In this document: piece by piece, positions 15,726 to 49,577 of the stretch
How positions within the stretch are numbered: the first letter of the stretch is position 1
Layout of the letters: each line of letters starts with the position of its first letter
From: Dissulfurispira thermophila
GTDB lineage: Bacteria > Nitrospirota > Thermodesulfovibrionia > Thermodesulfovibrionales > Dissulfurispiraceae
Assembly (NCBI RefSeq): GCF_014701235.1
Contig: NZ_AP022873.1
Location: forward strand, 124,001-188,000
DNA length: 64,000 nt
Direction of reading: 5' to 3'
Notes under the pieces: generated by a model
What the model was told of the DNA's origin: nothing
What the model saw: only the letters and a program-made list of their open reading frames with translations
The model's database searches: none
Made by a program: the position numbers and the translations under genes

Positions 15726-16469
15726 GGGGTCTTTAATCCCTGATTCTTTAAATCCCTTTGCTCTGAAGATACAGCTATCACATTTCCCGCAAGGGGTGAA
15801 TCGATGAATGGGTGAATCCCTGAATGGGTGAGTGGGCTGTGGGTCATAACAACTCCATGTTAGTGCATAGTCAAATCCAAGTTCTACTCCTTTTCTGATT
15901 ATCTCTGCCTTTGTCATATAAAGGAGTGGTGCCTTTATTTTAAATTTAATTTTGCCTTCTACAGATACCTTTGTTGCAAGATTTGCCATTTCTTCGAATG
16001 CCTTCAGGTATTCAGGCCGACAATCAGGATAACCGCTGTAATCTACTGCATTTGCACCAATAAATATATCTGATGCCTCAAGCACCTCTGCCCAACCAAG
16101 TGCAAAGGAAAGGAAAATTGTATTACGAGCTGGAACATAGGTAACAGGGATGTCATTTTTTGGTGTCAAGGTGTTAAGTGTCAGGGTGTCAGAGTCTCTT
16201 CCTTCTAAGTTCTGCCTTCTGTCTTTTGGCACTTCAATGTCAGATGTTAATGCGGAGCCGCCAATCTCTCTCAGATCAAATTTTATTATTAAATGTTTTT
16301 TTACACCTAAAAAGTCTGCTACTATTTTCGCTGCCTCAAGTTCGAGTTTATGCCTTTGACTATAGTTAAAACTCAACGCATAAATATCATATCCCTCTGC
16401 TTTTGCAATGGCAGCAGTTGTAGATGAGTCAATTCCGCCGCTTAAAAGGATAACTGCTTTCTTATGCAT
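15714..16469 (-). CDS. queC: 7-cyano-7-deazaguanine synthase, with two repeat insertions
   Basis: QueC converts 7-carboxy-7-deazaguanine to preQ0 using ATP and ammonia. The PP-loop motif [13 protein letters not shown] is at residues 8-20, and the zinc cysteines are in WSCYDP and CGKCDSC. Two segments interrupt conserved blocks: about 20 residues after EVPKDRR (16162-16228) and about 16 residues between SCYDPQ and CGKCDSC (15797-15836); both are encoded by 7- or 8-bp repeat arrays. The second lies inside the zinc-binding loop. tgt, which uses a preQ0-derived base, lies at 56.5 kb. Confidence 0.94.
15797..15836. repeat. Octamer array, unit TGAATGGG x5, inside queC
   Basis: Five contiguous 8-bp units beginning TGA (TGAATCGA, TGAATGGG twice, TGAATCCC, TGAGTGGG). 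They encode [13 protein letters not shown], an 8-residue-period peptide between two zinc ligands of QueC. Confidence 0.88.
16162..16228. repeat. Compound octamer and heptamer array inside queC
   Basis: GGTGTCAA-type 8-bp units (16162-16192, four units, one lacking a base) are followed after 8 bp by CCTTCTG-type 7-bp units (16201-16228, four units). The same GGTGTCAG unit occurs at 51.9 kb and the TTCTG unit at 18135. Confidence 0.82.
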
Positions 16470-16482
16470 AATTTTACTTTAA

Positions 16483-17103
16483 CTATGGCTTATTGCCTAT
16501 CTTTTCTCCGATTTTACTCTCAGTCCCCTGAATAAGTCTTTTAATATTTGCTATATGTCTTATGAATATCAAAAAAGCGATTATGACAGCAATTATTAAT
16601 TTTTCTTTTGAATAATCAAGCATGTAAAAACTAAGCGGCAGCAAGCCAAATGCAATTAGTGCGCTCAAAGAAGAGTATCTTGTCCACCTTGCTGTTAAGA
16701 ACCAGATTGTAATTGTGAGCAATGCAACATGTGGTGAGAAGGCAAGCAGAACCCCTATGCTTGTTGCAACACCCTTGCCTCCCTTAAACTTCAGAAATAC
16801 TGAAAAATTATGTCCTAATATCGTAGCAATGCCGAAAATTCCTGTATTTAATGTATCAAGTGCAAGCGCCTTTGCAATTGCCACAGGTATAACCCCTTTT
16901 GCAATATCTCCGACTAAAGTAAGTAGTGCTGCTTCCTTGCCTAGGGCCCTGAGCACATTTGTTGCACCTATATTTCCGCTCCCAACTTTTCTTATGTCAA
17001 TTCCTTTGGTCTTTGCAATTAATAGCCCTGTTGGTATCGAGCCTATAAGAAATGAGAGCATTATCAATCCAATCTCCAATCTCCAGTCCACAATCCCTAT
17101 CAT
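16483..17103 (-). CDS. plsY: Acyl-phosphate:glycerol-3-phosphate acyltransferase PlsY
   Basis: An inner-membrane enzyme that makes lysophosphatidic acid from acyl phosphate. The three family motifs are present: GSIPTGLL, SGNIGATNVLR and GHNFSVFLKFKGGKGVAT, with about five membrane segments. The ATG overlaps the pgsA stop (ATGA), giving a phospholipid pair. Residues 2-14 (IGIVDWRLEIGLI) are encoded by the heptamer array at 17064-17098 and are not part of the family; MLSFLIGSIPTG (start 17061) is the likely ancestral beginning. Confidence 0.94.
   Translation of the reverse strand: MIGIVDWRLEIGLIMLSFLIGSIPTGLLIAKTKGIDIRKVGSGNIGATNVLRALGKEAALLTLVGDIAKGVIPVAIAKALALDTLNTGIFGIATILGHNFSVFLKFKGGKGVATSIGVLLAFSPHVALLTITIWFLTARWTRYSSLSALIAFGLLPLSFYMLDYSKEKLIIAVIIAFLIFIRHIANIKRLIQGTESKIGEKIGNKP
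17064..17098. repeat. Heptamer array, unit AATCTCC x5
   Basis: Five contiguous 7-bp units (TCAATCC, AATCTCC twice, AGTCCAC, AATCCCT) at the 5' end of plsY. A related GGATTGG unit occurs at 35358. Confidence 0.87.
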
Positions 17104-17639: not shown

Positions 17640-18177
17640 TCAGTTCTTTCCATTTTCCGTTTGACTTTAGTATAAGGTCGCATATCTCCCTGACAGCGCC
17701 TCTTCCACCACGATTTTCTGTAACGATCATTGCCTCTGACTTTGCTTCTTCTACAGCATCTGCTGTAGCCACAGGAAGTGCAACCCTCTTAAAGATTGGG
17801 ATATCCACAACATCATCTCCGATATATGCCACCTCATTATCAGATATTCCTATCTTCTCTAATAGATGTTCATAAGCAACAGATTTTATGTGGCACCTTT
17901 GATAAACCTCTGTTATGCCAAGCTCATGGGCTCTTCTTTCAACAACTTTAGAATGTCTTCCTGTAATTATGGCAACCTTGATGCCAGCCTTTTCGAGCAT
18001 CTTTATTCCATGGCCATCCCTTACATGGAATGCCTTAAACTCATTGCCTTCATTATCAAGGATAATGCTTCCATCTGTAAGGACTCCATCGACATCAAGT
18101 ATAAGGAGTTTGATGTTTTTGGCAATTTTCTTTATTCTGTCTTCTGTCTTTTGTTTTCTGCCTTCTGTCTTCTTCAC
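17617..18177 (-). CDS. kdsC: 3-deoxy-D-manno-octulosonate 8-phosphate phosphatase
   Basis: A HAD-family phosphatase that releases KDO from KDO-8-phosphate. LLILDVDGVLTDG contains the nucleophile Asp, TGR and the later GDDVVDIP supply the other catalytic residues. The only usable start is GTG 18177, overlapping the kdsD stop. Residues 1-15 (KKTEGRKQKTEDR) are encoded by a TTCTGTC heptamer array and have a 7-residue period, so the N-terminus including the start region appears repeat-derived. Confidence 0.94.
   Translation of the reverse strand: MKKTEGRKQKTEDRIKKIAKNIKLLILDVDGVLTDGSIILDNEGNEFKAFHVRDGHGIKMLEKAGIKVAIITGRHSKVVERRAHELGITEVYQRCHIKSVAYEHLLEKIGISDNEVAYIGDDVVDIPIFKRVALPVATADAVEEAKSEAMIVTENRGGRGAVREICDLILKSNGKWKELIDEYYTI
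18135..18176. repeat. Heptamer array, unit TTCTGTC x6
   Basis: Six contiguous 7-bp units, three of them exact TTCTGTC, covering the junction of kdsD and kdsC and encoding the kdsC N-terminus on the minus strand. Confidence 0.9.
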
Positions 18178-29734: not shown

Positions 29735-30064
29735 TTGTCATGCTCTACTTTAGCTCACTCCCTTATAGTAAGCTGATGATTTTATTGATTTATTTTACAT
29801 AGCATTTTTAGGCTTGTCCTTCTATCAAGATTTTCATTTATTTTCAATTAATTATATGTCTAAAAATCTCCCTTTCACCCCATTTTTATAGGCTGAAGGC
29901 TGAAGGCTGAAGAATAGCCTAAAGCCTATTTACAGCCTACCGCCTAAAGCCTTAAGCCTATTTTCCCTCTCCCCAAAATGGATAGGGAATTTTTTAATTT
30001 TGTGAAGCCCTGATTTTATTAAAATTATACGATTTTTTAAGTTATTTTAGCTAAAAGAAAAATT
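29735..30064. other. Repeat-rich gap between the IS and pfk
   Basis: No gene is seen. The first 130 bp are AT-rich flank; 29866-29990 is a composite of CCC-rich blocks and heptamers that mirrors the composite at 11080-11180; the rest is T-rich and could end the pfk transcript. Confidence 0.65.
29891..29960. repeat. Heptamer array, GGCTGAA x3 passing into GCCTAAA-type units
   Basis: Ten consecutive 7-bp units: GGCTGAA three times, then degenerate units with inverted character such as CAGCCTA, AAGCCTT and AAGCCTA, so the array is partly self-complementary. GGCTGAA is also the unit at 11120 and 57102. Confidence 0.88.
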
Positions 30065-43743: not shown

Positions 43744-45099
43744 ATGATTATTAATTTGATATTCTTTTATTTTTGTATTAAGAGTTTTGTGGTCTATTTG
43801 AAGTGCTGCTGATACTTTTGTCTTATTCCAGTTATATATTTCGAGTGCTTTCATGATAAGCTTTTTTTCGAGAGAGCTTATAGCATCTTTAAGAGGCATA
43901 ATAGGATAAAGGTCGTTATAACTAATGTATTCTTTATCTTCGATAAGAAATTTTAGGTGTTCTGATTTTATTCGGCCTTCATTTGAAAATAATACGGCAC
44001 GGCGAAGTACATTTTTTAATTCCCTGAGATTACCCGGCCAAGTGTGTCTTTTTAAAATCTCGATGGTATCTTCATCTATATCCAGTATGCCCTTATTTAG
44101 TTCAGAGCACGCATCTATAATAAACTTTTTGGCAAAAAATGGTATGTCTTCAACCCGTGATCTTAATGGAGGCAAACTGATTATAAATTCTCCAAGCCGA
44201 TAAAACAGATCGTCCCTAAATTTTTTTTCGATAACATTGCTTTTTATATCTTTGTTTGTAGCTGCAATGATTCTGACATCTACAGTTATTGGTTTTTTAC
44301 TGCCGAGAGGATAGATAGTCATATTTTCTACAACGCTTAAAAGCTTACTCTGCACCATTGGTGACAGATTTTCCAATTCATCTATCAGGATGGTTCCACC
44401 ATCTGCAATTTTTAAAAATCCGCTTTTGTTAACAATTGCTCCAGTGAATGCACCTTTTTCATAGCCAAACAATTCGCTTTCTACCAATGTTTCAGGGATA
44501 GCACTAAGGTCTATCTTGATAAATGGCTTGTTGCTTCTTTTGCTTAAATTATGGATTATATTTGCCACGAATGTCTTTCCAGTCCCTGTCTCTCCCTGTA
44601 TGATTATGGAAAAATCGCTTTGTGCAACCTGTTTTATCTGTTCAATGACTTTTTTCATTGCATTACTGCTGCCAAGTGTCCATTCGAGTGATTTATCCAC
44701 ACTTTCATGCAGACTACTTATTTCCTTTTGCAGGTATAATTTTTCAATAGCTCGCTTAACTGTAACAATGAGCTTTCCAGCTTCCACAGGTTTAACAAGG
44801 AAATCATACGCCCCGAGTTTCATTGTCTCTACAGCAGTGGACATATCTCCTTGTGAAGTAACAACAATGACTGGTATAGAGGCATCTATTTTCTTTATTT
44901 CATTTATTGTCTGAATGCCATCCATGCCTGGCATATTGAGGTCCAATATAACAACATCTGGTTTGTCTTTTGGAAAGATATTTATTGCCTCGATACCATT
45001 GGCTGCTTCATAAATAGCATAGGCTTCTTTCTCAAGCATCCTCCTTAAAATGAGTCTTGTTGTTTTACTGTCTTCTACTATGAGGACTTTATTTATCAT
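43726..45099 (-). CDS. NtrC-type sigma-54 response regulator
   Basis: 457 residues: a receiver (about 1-120, Asp in VVILDLNMPGMDG, Lys in LVKPVEAG), AAA+ domain (about 140-375) with Walker A QGETGTGKT and an intact GAFTGA loop, Walker B DGGTILIDELEN, and a Fis-type HTH (NWNKTKVSAALQIDHKTLNTKI). The promoter class it activates is not identified. It overlaps holA by 4 bp, an unusual operon partner, and lies upstream of the chemotaxis cluster. Confidence 0.95.
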   Translation of the reverse strand: MINKVLIVEDSKTTRLILRRMLEKEAYAIYEAANGIEAINIFPKDKPDVVILDLNMPGMDGIQTINEIKKIDASIPVIVVTSQGDMSTAVETMKLGAYDFLVKPVEAGKLIVTVKRAIEKLYLQKEISSLHESVDKSLEWTLGSSNAMKKVIEQIKQVAQSDFSIIIQGETGTGKTFVANIIHNLSKRSNKPFIKIDLSAIPETLVESELFGYEKGAFTGAIVNKSGFLKIADGGTILIDELENLSPMVQSKLLSVVENMTIYPLGSKKPITVDVRIIAATNKDIKSNVIEKKFRDDLFYRLGEFIISLPPLRSRVEDIPFFAKKFIIDACSELNKGILDIDEDTIEILKRHTWPGNLRELKNVLRRAVLFSNEGRIKSEHLKFLIEDKEYISYNDLYPIMPLKDAISSLEKKLIMKALEIYNWNKTKVSAALQIDHKTLNTKIKEYQINNHGNNSQ

Positions 45100-46010
45100 C
45101 TATTTACCCTGTGTGTCATCTTTTCTGCCTTAAGCAGTTTGATAAGTAAATCTTCTATTACATAGGGATGAGATGTCTTGATAGAGGTATCCGCTTCGTG
45201 GAGCAGCTTAAAAACCGTCCTGAAAAATCTTTCGCTTTTATGATGCGGCTTGCCTTGGAGGTTTGCATATTGATAGTTTAATGCACCAAGCAGCATCTGG
45301 GATTCTGTATTTTTACCAACATTTTCGAATATCCTGAATGCCTCTGCTACCTCTTTCTTCTTTAAGGCATCAAAGAGGTCAAAGGCATTGTATTCAGCAC
45401 TTGTATAGACCATGTCTTTAATATCGTCAATATCAATTTTACGAATACTGCATGAGGAAAACTTTTCTATTTCAGAATAAAGCATCCCTAGGTCTGTGCC
45501 TACACAACTTATCAGATAGTCTATTGCCCTATCTGTAAAGTCTATACCAAATTTTTTTGAGATGCTCTTTATCCACGAAGGGATGTCTTTTTCTTGTACA
45601 TTGAGACCAATAACCTTTATGTTTTCAGTAGAAATTGCATTAAAAAGTTTTGGCGATGTCCCCTCAAAAAGCATTATCAGTAAAGAGGTATTTGACGGAT
45701 TTATGAGGTATTCACTGAGTTTTTCAATATTCTTTTTTGTCAATTTCTGTGTATTTTCGATAATTACAACTCGTCTTTTAGCAGTGGACAGAAAAGGCAT
45801 TGTGTTGAGAATGTCTATTATTTGTTCTATAGGCTTGAAGTTTTCTGATGATCCAGCATCAAATATATCAAGATTAAGAGTATCAGAATGGTATTTGTCT
45901 TTTATGAGTGTTTTTATTTCATAGAGTAAAAAATCATCTGATGAGTAAAATAGGTATGAAGGTGATGGAAACCCATTTGAAAGCTCTATATGAAGTTGCT
46001 TGATACTCAT
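45096..46010 (-). CDS. holA: DNA polymerase III subunit delta
   Basis: 304 residues of the clamp-loader wrench. LSTAKRRVVIIENTQKLTKK, ISTENIKVIGLNV, FSSCSIRKIDIDDIK and AYNAFDLFDALKKKEVAEAFRIF fit HolA. It has the usual place between an LPS lipoprotein gene and leuS upstream; 4-bp overlaps on both sides indicate one operon leuS > lptE-like > holA > ntrC-like. Confidence 0.92.
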   Translation of the reverse strand: MSIKQLHIELSNGFPSPSYLFYSSDDFLLYEIKTLIKDKYHSDTLNLDIFDAGSSENFKPIEQIIDILNTMPFLSTAKRRVVIIENTQKLTKKNIEKLSEYLINPSNTSLLIMLFEGTSPKLFNAISTENIKVIGLNVQEKDIPSWIKSISKKFGIDFTDRAIDYLISCVGTDLGMLYSEIEKFSSCSIRKIDIDDIKDMVYTSAEYNAFDLFDALKKKEVAEAFRIFENVGKNTESQMLLGALNYQYANLQGKPHHKSERFFRTVFKLLHEADTSIKTSHPYVIEDLLIKLLKAEKMTHRVNR

Positions 46011-46978
46011 TGTTTTTCAGTTATTCTGTTTAGTCCTGCTATTTCATCAGGATATGCTTCTTGTATCAACAGTCTATTTAATCTCATGCGCTCGAGACCA
46101 GATGGATTTTGTTTGATCAGGTCTAATGTCTCTTGCGTTAAAGCAATGTGCGCAAACCGTTTTTCATCAAATATAGAAACACCTTGTACGATTGTGTTTA
46201 GGTCATTAACAATAAGAGGTTTAATTTTATCAGGTGGTATTTTTGCATTCACATATTCGTGAAGCATCTGACGTGTGTTAGGAGATAACTGCTGTCGTAA
46301 GTATATAGACACAGGATCTTTTGGCTCGTGCAGTTTTAATATTAGGTTTTCTAAATTTTTGATATCAGAAGCAGTAAACAATAAATATGCAAGATTTTTA
46401 GGGGTGTTGTAAGTTATGATTCTTACTATTTCCTGTGAAAGATTTTTTAATGCACTTACAGTTGAAAGCTCTTTTTGTGCAAGGACATTTTCGAGCCGTT
46501 CAGTAGAGCTAAAATAGGTAATAAAAGGGCTATCTGCTACAAGAGGAACAGATTTTCTGGTGGATGTATCAATGAGTCTGAAATTAGCTTTTATCACGAC
46601 CTTATATTGTGCTGCCACAAGGTTTTGTTCAGTCAGTGGCTCTAATTCAAATTTTGTTATTTCTCCTTCAAGTCTGTACCTTGCAGATGAGCTTACCTTA
46701 AAGCCATATTCTGCAAATGTCTCTGCAAGAGACCTGCTGAACATGTCCTGTAGTTTTGGTTCATATGTCTTGTTTTCTAATTTCCCAACTGCTATGGTAT
46801 CAAATGGTAGGTTTGCTTTTGTTTGAATGGTATAACCGCAGCCAAACAGAAGTAAGAGATAAAAAGTAAGAATTAGGAAGTAAAAATGCCTAAAACTAAG
46901 GCATAACGACTTTGTCCTATAGCATGTAGTCATGGATATATTGCCTTCTAATTTATTTTTGTTGCCTTCTTTTTTCAC
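46007..46978 (-). CDS. lptE: LptE-like outer-membrane LPS assembly lipoprotein with C-terminal extension
   Basis: LptE plugs LptD in the outer membrane. LLLLFGC is a lipobox and the next residues GYTIQTKANLPFDTIAVGKLENKTYEPKL are typical; order after leuS and before holA supports it. Two oddities: the hydrophobic core of the signal peptide (FYFLILTFYLLLLF) is encoded by a degenerate 7-bp repeat array (46845-46886), and about 120 residues beyond the usual LptE length follow (from SDIKNLENLIL), a helical extension with no recognised domain. The start at 46978 gives a long N-region; ATG 46933 (MTTCYRTK) is an alternative. Confidence 0.82.
   Translation of the reverse strand: MKKEGNKNKLEGNISMTTCYRTKSLCLSFRHFYFLILTFYLLLLFGCGYTIQTKANLPFDTIAVGKLENKTYEPKLQDMFSRSLAETFAEYGFKVSSSARYRLEGEITKFELEPLTEQNLVAAQYKVVIKANFRLIDTSTRKSVPLVADSPFITYFSSTERLENVLAQKELSTVSALKNLSQEIVRIITYNTPKNLAYLLFTASDIKNLENLILKLHEPKDPVSIYLRQQLSPNTRQMLHEYVNAKIPPDKIKPLIVNDLNTIVQGVSIFDEKRFAHIALTQETLDLIKQNPSGLERMRLNRLLIQEAYPDEIAGLNRITEKQ
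46845..46886. repeat. Degenerate heptamer array, unit GTAAGAA x6, encoding a signal peptide
   Basis: Six 7-bp units (GTAAGAA, GTAAGAG, GTAAAAA and relatives). On the minus strand they encode FYFLILT then FYLLLLF, the hydrophobic stretch before the lipobox. Confidence 0.75.
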
Positions 46979-46994: not shown

Positions 46995-49577
46995 CTAACT
47001 TACCACTATATTGACAAGTTTGCCTTTTACAACAACAACTTTTTTAATCTGTCTTCCTTTTAGCAATTCTTTTATTTTCTGTTCTTGCAATGCCCTTTGT
47101 TTTGCATCGTCATCTGATAATCCGGCAGAGACAAATATCTTTGCCCTCAGTTTCCCATTTACCTGTACAACAAGCTCTATTTCTTCTTCTTTTGCAAGTT
47201 CCTTATCCCATTCGGGCCATTGATGCTCAAATATGCTATTTTTCTCACCGATTGCCTCCCATAATTCCTCAGCAATATGCGGAGCAAATGGAGCAAGCAT
47301 TAACAGGCTATTTTTTATTGCAGTTCTTAAAATATAGGTATCTTCATCTGTTTGTGGAATGAATGATGACATATCATTTACCAGTTCCATAAGGGCTGCA
47401 ATTGCTGTGTTAAAGTGATAATCTTTTTCTATGTCATCAGTCACTTTTTTAATGGTCTGGTGAGTCTTTCGCAAGAGGTTTAATGAAGATGGCTGGAGTT
47501 TAGATGTTAGATCCAAAATATCTTGAACTTTGAATTCTGAAGTTTGAATCTTGAACTTTTTAGTAATGCCCCATATCTTATTTAAAAACCTGTAAGCACC
47601 TTCTACTCCCTTGTCTGACCATTCAAGGTCTCTTTCAGGAGGGGCAGCAAACAGACTGAAAAGACGCATAGTGTCCGCCCCATATCTGGCAATCAACGCA
47701 TCAGGGTCAATCACATTTTTTTTGGATTTTGACATCTTTTCAACCCTGCCTTTTTCAGCATCCATGCCGCAGTGAATACATTTGCCGTCTTTGACCTCTT
47801 CAGGAAATAGATAATCATGTTCAGGGCATCTCCATGTTTCTTTGCAGACCATACCCTGTGTTAAGAGATTAGTGAATGGCTCACTGATATGCAGCAATCC
47901 AAGGTCCCTCATTGCTCTTGTAAAAAATCTCGAATATAAGAGGTGAAGCACTGCATGTTCAATGCCTCCAATATATTGATCAACAGGCATCCAGTAAGAT
48001 AATGGGGATTTCAAATTTGAAATTTGAGATTTCAGATTAATGCTATTGTTAAGGCAATATGCCACAAAATACCATGATGAGTCCACGAATGTATCCATAG
48101 TATCTGTTTCCCTTTTTGCATCTCCACCACACCTTGGGCATTTAACTTTCAAGAACTCTTCTGACTCCAGAAGTGGTGAGCCACCTTTTCCTGTGAATTT
48201 TACATTTTCAGGAAGTATTATAGGAAGGTCTTTTTCAGGCACAGGGACAGTGCCGCATCTGTCACAATAAATTATTGGTATTGGCGTGCCCCAATATCTC
48301 TGTCTTGAGATGCCCCAATCTCTGAGCTTATAGTTAATCGTCCTCTTTCCAAGACGTTTGTCTTCTATGTATTTTGCAATTGCCTTTTTTGCATCAGCAT
48401 TTTTAAATCCACTGAATCGTCCTGAATTAACAAGCACACCTTCGCCTTCAAAGGCTTCTTTTAGTAGTTCTGCTGACTGCTGACTGTTGACTGCTGACGG
48501 TTCTTCTGGCATTATGACAACTTTTATTGGCAGTCCGTATTTTTTTGCAAACTCAAAGTCTCTCTGGTCATGTGCTGGTACAGACATTATTGCACCGGTG
48601 CCATATTCCATGAGGACAAAATTTGCAATATAAATCGGTATTTTTTCGTTAGTAATGGGATTAATTGCATAATGCCCTGTAAAAAGACCTTCTTTATGCT
48701 CCATCTTGCCATACTTTGCTTTTATAGCCTCAAGTTTATCTTTATCTTTAACTAAACTCTCTGAAAGCGGATGCCCCGGGGCAAGACACATATATGTGAC
48801 TCCAAATATTGTATCAGGCCTTGTTGTATATATCCTTATTTTCTCATCGCTTTCATCTATAGGGAAGTCTATCTCAACTCCCTCACTCTTTCCAATCCAG
48901 TTTTTCTGCATTGCAACAACCCGTTCAGGCCAACCTTTTAATTCATCACATCCTTGTAAGAGTTCTTCTGCATAATGTGTAATTTTAAAAAACCATTGCT
49001 CAAGCTCTTTCTGAATCACCTCACTGTCACATCTCCAGCATTTCCCATCAATTACTTGCTCATTTGCTAAAACAGTCACACAAGATGGACACCAGTTGAC
49101 AAATGATGCCTTTTTGTATGCAAGCCCCTTTTCATAGAGCTTAAGAAACAACCATTGATTCCATTTGTAATATTCAGGGCTGCATGTGGTTATTTCCCTT
49201 TGCCAGTCATAACTTAATCCCATGCGGTTTAGCTGTTTTTTCATATACCCTATATTTTCATATGTCCATTTTGCTGGATGTACACCATGCTTTATAGCTG
49301 CGTTTTCAGCAGGCAGACCGAATGCATCCCAACCCATTGGATGAAGCACATTGAAACCCTTCATCTTTTTGTATCGGGCTATAACATCGCCGATTGCATA
49401 GTTTCGCACATGCCCCATGTGGATTTTGCCTGAAGGATATGGAAACATCTCAAGGCAGTAGAATTTCTTTTTTGAGGCATCAGTTTCTGTTTTGTGAATA
49501 TTTTTTTCAGCCCAATATTTCTGCCATTTAAGCTCTATTTCCTGTGGATTATATTTTTCCTGCAAAACTACCTCCAA
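46995..49577 (-). CDS. leuS: Leucyl-tRNA synthetase with three repeat insertions
   Basis: 860 residues. HMGHVRNY (HIGH box) near 54, KMSKSKKNV near 640, the editing domain with [12 protein letters not shown], and the Zn-type CPRCGG and CPEHDY...CIHCG clusters are all present. Three segments look inserted: [11 protein letters not shown] (48474-48501), [11 protein letters not shown] (48007-48034) and [11 protein letters not shown] (47521-47555), each encoded by a different heptamer array. They fall at places where LeuRS tolerates length variation. First gene of the lptE-holA run. Confidence 0.96.
47521..47555. repeat. Heptamer array, unit CTTTGAA x5, in leuS
   Basis: Five contiguous 7-bp units ending TGAA (TCTTGAA twice, CTTTGAA, TTCTGAA, GTTTGAA). 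Less regular units continue to about 47489. They encode [14 protein letters not shown] with a 7-residue period. Similar to the unit at 3074. Confidence 0.88.
48007..48034. repeat. Heptamer array, AATTTGA/GATTTCA x4, in leuS
   Basis: Units GATTTCA, AATTTGA, AATTTGA, GATTTCA in that order; encode [11 protein letters not shown] with a 7-residue period just before the conserved YWMPVDQY block. Confidence 0.88.
48474..48501. repeat. Heptamer array, unit TGACTGC x4, in leuS
   Basis: TGACTGC, TGACTGT, TGACTGC and TGACGGT in direct tandem; encode AVNSQQS on the minus strand within the LeuRS editing-domain region. Confidence 0.9.

Follow-up and report, generated by a model that had tools for sequence, protein, structure and literature searches.

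Array in the lptE Signal Sequence

The window analyzed here is a stretch of 64,000 nucleotides of Dissulfurispira thermophila (G000), positions 124001-188000 of a single 2.37-Mb contig. On its minus strand lies a gene for an LPS-assembly lipoprotein, with leuS upstream and a holA-like gene downstream (Table 1). The product had been described as LptE-like in the initial annotation, and a Pfam match to LptE (PF04390) at 2e-9 and 38.6 bits, against a cut-off of 23, bears this out; orthologs were present in 58 of the 60 relatives searched. As in the LptE family, the lipobox Cys stands behind a hydrophobic signal and is predicted to be acylated. The Phe at position -2 of the lipobox is unusual. All three heptamer arrays within leuS are in frame and encode hydrophilic stretches, and leuS-length ORFs of relatives have arrays at comparable positions too.

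Table 1. Positions of the lptE locus features within the window
Feature	Position	Strand	Basis and remarks
holA-like gene (DNA polymerase III delta)	45096..46010	-	Pfam DNA_pol3_delta 7e-10; overlaps lptE by 4 nt
lptE CDS (LPS-assembly lipoprotein)	46007..46933	-	308 aa, ATG at 46933; Pfam and translation
Lipobox LFGC, Cys32	46838..46849	-	Translation; Cys conserved and aligned in relatives
h-region FYFLILTFYLLLLF, aa 17-30	46844..46885	-	Translation; entirely array-encoded
Six degenerate 7-bp units	46845..46886	+	AACAGAA GTAAGAG ATAAAAA GTAAGAA TTAGGAA GTAAAAA; direct reading, Tandem Repeats Finder, synonymous shuffle
Signal peptide n-region MTTCYRTKSLCLSFRH	46886..46933	-	Translation
Purine-rich heptamer stretch GCAAGAAGTGGGAAGTGAAAA	46972..46992	-	Precedes the lptE start; may be the inverted counterpart of the array in the signal peptide
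leuS	46995..49577	-	Pfam tRNA-synt_1_2 1.5e-68
Heptamer array within leuS	47523..47559	+	Tandem Repeats Finder and array scan
Heptamer array within leuS	48008..48038	+	Tandem Repeats Finder and array scan
Heptamer array within leuS	48470..48502	+	Tandem Repeats Finder and array scan

The hydrophobic core of the LptE signal peptide, FYFLILT followed by FYLLLLF, is read on the minus strand at an offset of 1 nt from six heptamer units, and the lipobox follows directly. This arrangement, proposed in the initial annotation, was confirmed by direct reading and translation as well as by Tandem Repeats Finder, which independently detected positions 46848-46887 with a period of 14 (2 × 7), 76% matches and a score of 45. 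The units had been termed GTAAGAA-type; they are heptamers, but a single unit matches GTAAGAA exactly, and the array is more degenerate than the term implied. Because of this degeneracy, a plain pattern search for GTAAGAA pairs did not exceed chance (15 matches versus 11 expected), and we turned instead to a lag-7/14 score, controlled by synonymous recoding and codon-order shuffling. The lptE signal-peptide DNA gave a period-7 score of 20.1, which 0.5% of 3000 synonymous recodings reached (p = 0.005); among codon-order shuffles the proportion was below 0.1%. No other period tested between 5 and 11 scored above 5.

The exact array sequence occurs once in the genome, and a GTRAGAA triplet pattern gave seven matches genome-wide compared with three for the reversed control, so the shared unit of STRR-like repeats was not found. 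The possibility that the array is a copy of one dispersed family was rejected, as its unit is rare elsewhere in the genome.

lptE Signals in Related Genomes

Comparison of the 5' end of lptE across relatives, which the initial annotation had suggested as a check, revealed the periodicity again, often in cleaner form and with different units. The signal is heptameric, with a period-7 score of at least 16, in 11 other relatives, namely G001 (a same-genus MAG, 'Nitrospirae bacterium FK3.bin35'), G002, G003, G005, G006, G012, G013, G015, G018, G028 and G041; the synonymous p value is below 0.01 in all of them and 0.0003 in several. The unit preceding the lipobox Cys varies by species and its position is constant: CTGTTTACTGCTTACTG in G002 and G003, ACTGTTCACTGTTTACTG in G001, ACTATTCACTATTCGC in G028, TTGTTACTCGTTAC in G006 and G018, ACGGTTC plus ACTTTTC in G005, and ACTTGTTACTCGTTAC in G041. 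Heptamers were also seen in lptE of other families (TGCTTCT in G031, ACTGTCT in G054 and GCTCTTT in G034), again with synonymous p values below 0.01. By synonymous shuffle, the lptE periodicity was not significant in G008, G009, G014, G016, G011, G022 and others. Two of the signals are composite: in G005 (L018) the ACGGTTC family gives way to the ACTTTTC family at constant period, forming a mosaic array, and in G041 (L031) an octamer array, TCTCCGTA, is directly followed by a heptamer array (ACTTGTT) within one signal peptide.

On a tree of 50 LptE sequences, the array label requires eight changes (gains or losses), at least six of them forced by well-supported branches. Array-less LptE is widespread in the order, and the array is thus younger than the gene family. 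The relatives did not present the same hydrophobic sequence stripped of its periodicity; G024 comes nearest, having kept the hydrophobic peptide with the periodicity nearly eroded through substitution.

The arrays of the closest species pair, G002 and G003, are equal in length and one substitution apart (one genome per species). Phase variation was rejected, given that this pair differs by substitution and not by length and that the units are too degenerate. This degeneracy also makes present-day slippage unlikely in the window's array.

A Genome-wide Class of Heptamer Arrays

In evenly spaced stretches of the home genome totalling 800 kb of 2.37 Mb, we found 81 period-7 and 35 period-8 arrays. 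Third-order Markov controls gave none at period 7, so that dispersed tandem 7-bp units occur above chance, as in STRR-like repeats, at a density of 101/Mb against a control of 0. Periods 7 and 8 stand out among array periods in the genome, and the units are very diverse from one array to the next. Arrays of the same kind also lie between genes and within non-signal proteins. Array density parallels the state of lptE, with 117-450/Mb in G001, G002, G005, G012, G015 and G018 and 0-12 in G008, G009 and G014, some of the relatives' samples comprising only 20-60 kb. Heptameric lptE signals are found in array-rich relatives, whereas array-poor relatives are without them. The lptE array of the window is one case of this wider pattern.

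Other arrays in the window illustrate the variety of the class. The array at 17068-17099 (TCCAATC) supplies the N-terminal residues, MIGIVDWRLEIG, of an ORF of 206 aa resembling PlsY by eye, and that at 18123-18173 forms a basic N-terminal extension, KKTEGRKQKTEDRIKKI, of a phosphatase ORF, presumably KdsC-like from inspection by eye. Between genes, heptamer arrays of the AGGCTGA and TCAGCCT types make up an inverted pair at 29889-29912 and 29931-29960. An octamer array, GGGTGAAT, occupies 15794-15836; among array periods in the genome, 8 ranks second in frequency.

Enrichment on Sec Signal Peptides

Signal peptides were called by a heuristic combining hydropathy and a cleavage motif, and both this rule and the gene calls are crude. 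Predicted Sec h-regions make up 0.7% of coding DNA in the home-genome sample, and 8 of the 58 in-ORF arrays fall on them compared with 0.41 expected (about 20-fold, p = 8e-9); seven remain when the lptE array that prompted the analysis is set aside. When these 103 signal peptides were recoded synonymously, the mean was 0.28 against the eight observed at period 7, and periods 5, 6, 8, 9, 10 and 11 yielded 0 or 1 h-region array each. Judged by their mature parts, the genes with array signals encode LptA, TolB, FlgI, FlgH, AmiC, FliP, AtpF, a SpoIID-like protein and an MgtE_N-domain protein, and a broader listing across samples contains further cases, weaker or later-starting. The FliP signal peptide (L083:6915-7050) consists of an inverted heptamer pair, and its ORF runs on from an upstream FliO-like segment, which could reflect either a fliO-fliP fusion or an internal start for FliP.

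The sample from relatives showed a 14-fold enrichment, which we do not count as independent, since lptE accounts for five of the six genes and the contigs concerned had been selected for it. TolB provides a better test, as its orthologs were not picked for arrays. Its signal is heptamer-coded, with different units, in G001, G002, G003, G005, G012, G015 and G041; no heptamer-coded TolB signal was found in G008, G011, G014 or G016.

These data bear on the possibility that the periodicity is a chance by-product of codons rich in Phe, Leu and Tyr. Such an origin would fit the degenerate array and the pattern matches, which alone do not rise above expectation, but it leaves unexplained the synonymous-shuffle values in the window and in several relatives, the enrichment of period 7 alone, the absence of arrays from Markov controls and the restriction of high period-7 scores to array-rich genomes, and we give it almost no credence. 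The proposal in the initial annotation that a repeat had been adopted as a secretion signal gains support from the many exported proteins of this genome with heptamer-coded signals; from its position and homology, the array-coded segment of LptE probably serves in secretion. The h-region of this LptE signal is a degenerate 7-bp array, and we consider it fairly probable that it belongs to a genome-wide class of heptamers (and some octamers), many of them in inverted pairs, which has repeatedly been used as Sec signal peptides in this lineage.

Inverted Pairs and a Dispersed Palindrome

Partners were counted at a distance of at most 150 bp and an identity of at least 15/18: among 91 arrays, 27 are paired with an inverted copy and nine with a direct one, compared with none at random places. 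In several genes the basic n-region is read from the purine arm and the hydrophobic h-region from the pyrimidine arm, for example MKNRSQKSEVRGQTTEAGVFPNLYSVLYILFSVFCVLSSVHADD in G012 and TolB of G012. The amiC copy, which folds at -86.7 kcal/mol (z = -7.3), belongs to a longer, nested palindrome whose ends are heptameric and whose core is octameric (GGTGAAGN). A dispersed palindrome of about 200 bp is common to amiC and the lptA leader (72% over 204 bp, 4e-28), and further copies lie at lspA, at a TolC-like gene and between genes. The amiC/lptA/lspA element therefore has the inverted repeat and several dispersed copies of RPE- or MITE-like elements; for the lptE array of the window this likeness is not significant. 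One copy (L114:1500-1653) forms the N-terminal extension of an ORF which, by eye, resembles the lipoprotein signal peptidase LspA. A consensus peptide of the combined n- and h-region cassette (E ≤ 0.001) had matches in 26 of the 246 Nitrospirota genomes sampled. Many of these fall outside the reading frame or occur on both strands, which palindromes would give, and the matches therefore show the spread of the repeats rather than of signal peptides.

For lptE itself, an inverted partner is clear in G006, G018 and G041, and the fold z-scores are -3.1 for the leader of G018 and -4.0 for that of G041. In the window, the GCAAGAAGTGGGAAGTGAAAA stretch is complementary to the array at 15 of 18 positions; since 10 of 100 shuffles do equally well, it is at most suggested as an inverted partner. 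The leader of the window does not form a significant palindrome (fold z = -1.2), and the array may thus be tied to the palindromic element by analogy with G006, G018 and G041.

The arrays could instead act mainly in nucleic acid, as 5'-end hairpins controlling translation or transcription, with hydrophobic coding as a by-product. The closeness of inverted pairs to gene starts, the strong folds of the amiC element and of the lptE leaders of G018 and G041, and the position of the published TAACTGA heptamers, mostly directly upstream of start codons (PMC4679880), are in line with such a role. Most lptE leaders, however, fold no better than shuffles, for which reason a conserved RNA hairpin in the leader was dropped as a general mechanism. 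The orientation of the arrays also speaks against it. In about half of the in-ORF arrays the opposite strand is closed in all frames, so that their orientation is forced. Arrays on h-regions adopt the hydrophobic orientation even where the opposite strand is open, and arrays in purine orientation lie elsewhere in proteins. Among arrays open on either strand, 10 of the 12 read as hydrophobic pyrimidine arrays lie close to an N-terminus, and those read as purine arrays extend over the rest of the proteins, a pattern compatible with selection by protein location. We therefore regard a primary role in nucleic acid as improbable.

Origin and Turnover of the Arrays

Another possibility is that the signal peptide came first and that replication slippage made and homogenized 7-bp repeats in situ in a T-rich, low-complexity h-region, with nothing inserted or adopted. 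The lptE arrays of G000 and G002 share the same 7-bp register, with indels confined to the flanks, and the array also remains in register despite n-region indels relative to G002 and G003; this would fit in-place evolution as well as insertion. TolB of G003 and G015 likewise has a common flanking signal sequence with consistently different units (ACTATTC versus ACTCTTY), and signal peptides are free to evolve while they stay hydrophobic. On the other hand, a 7-bp unit step breaks the reading frame, so that slippage within genes should favor periods 6 and 9, which were not observed; the inverted partners beyond the h-region and the palindrome shared by unrelated genes require dispersal; and the same arrays occur outside signal peptides. 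In-situ slippage thus appears unlikely, though it is the strongest of the alternatives.

The best reading of the data is that dispersed heptamer and palindromic repeats serve as recurrent, frame-independent signal-peptide cassettes. As 7 is not a multiple of 3, every frame of a tandem heptamer yields one and the same repeating heptapeptide. For lptE, hydropathy averages 1.67, 1.13 and 1.70 by frame in array-positive sequences versus 2.0, 0.9 and 0.18 in array-negative ones. The pyrimidine strand of the heptamers would give a peptide rich in Leu, Phe, Val, Cys, Ser and Tyr, and, the heptapeptide being the same in every frame, an inverted pair would supply a basic n-region from its purine arm and an h-region from its pyrimidine arm in almost any frame. 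With a start codon nearby, in frame with the mature protein, the signal peptide would be complete, and the LptE precursor would then be processed as usual by SecYEG, Lgt and LspA.

Insertion is the origin that we infer for the arrays, though the one in lptE may instead have expanded within an older signal. Once established, units would turn over by substitution and, as we also infer, by slippage, with hydrophobicity maintained. Because hydrophobicity is independent of frame, a one-unit change in an N-terminal signal might be repaired by a shift to a different start codon, but farther inside a protein it would disrupt the gene, an argument drawn from the genetic code and the sequences. The broader proposition is that palindromic heptamer repeats are a recurrent source of Sec signals across Nitrospirota, their inverted arms giving an n-region and an h-region whichever strand or frame is read, and that essential envelope proteins (LptE, LptA, TolB, FlgI and others) have many times had their signals replaced in this way; we see its chances as about even.

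Relation to Known Repeats

The closest precedents are the Rickettsia palindromic elements and the Yersinia RU-2 repeat. The former (Ogata et al., 2000) are summarized in PMC10969869 and PMC2229807 as palindromes of about 100-150 bp lying in frame in many genes for conserved proteins, and the present repeats resemble them in being dispersed, palindromic and translated in frame within conserved proteins. Those texts do not describe tandem heptamer arms or use as signal peptides; here, in contrast, 7-bp (and 8-bp) arrays are the arms and Sec signals are a favored site. Among the Yersinia repeats YAPL/RU-2 and RU-1f, a palindromic repeat is part of one predicted signal peptide (Delihas, 2007; PMC2759123, PMC2229807). 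That case concerns one protein, putatively exported, and not a group of core envelope genes, does not recur across species and, unlike the arrays here, is without the frame-independence of a 7-bp period.

Heptamer repeats as such are over-represented in bacteria, with polymerase slippage suggested as the cause (PMC4692102), and include TAACTGA in Beggiatoaceae and others, which encodes one heptapeptide, LSVISYQ (MacGregor, PMC4679880), and GGGAATC in Xanthomonas and Nostoc (PMC4692102). Like these and the cyanobacterial STRR arrays, the present arrays are dispersed 7-bp tandems, mostly intergenic in the known systems and in some cases within ORFs. Stops in all frames are possible there in one orientation, and inverted repeats have been discussed for Xanthomonas; those systems have one or few unit sequences per genome, whereas the units here are diverse, commonly intragenic and enriched on signals. 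Phase-variable SSRs such as the 7-bp repeat of Haemophilus hmw1A (PMC8262952) are also heptamer tandems near gene starts, but the units of the window are degenerate and give no sign of on/off switching. In the open-access literature we found no account in which heptamer arrays recur as the signals of core envelope proteins.

Few parts of proteins evolve as fast as signal peptides, and little is known about how new ones arise. In the present case, repeats of one class seem to generate them in large numbers in conserved genes of the envelope, and the 7-bp period, which yields the same hydrophobic peptide in every frame, offers a simple reason. Heptamer repeats, whose over-representation in bacteria has no settled explanation, would thereby gain a setting that tolerates them or puts them to use, suggesting that junk-like repeats can supply a ready-made, frame-independent secretion signal.
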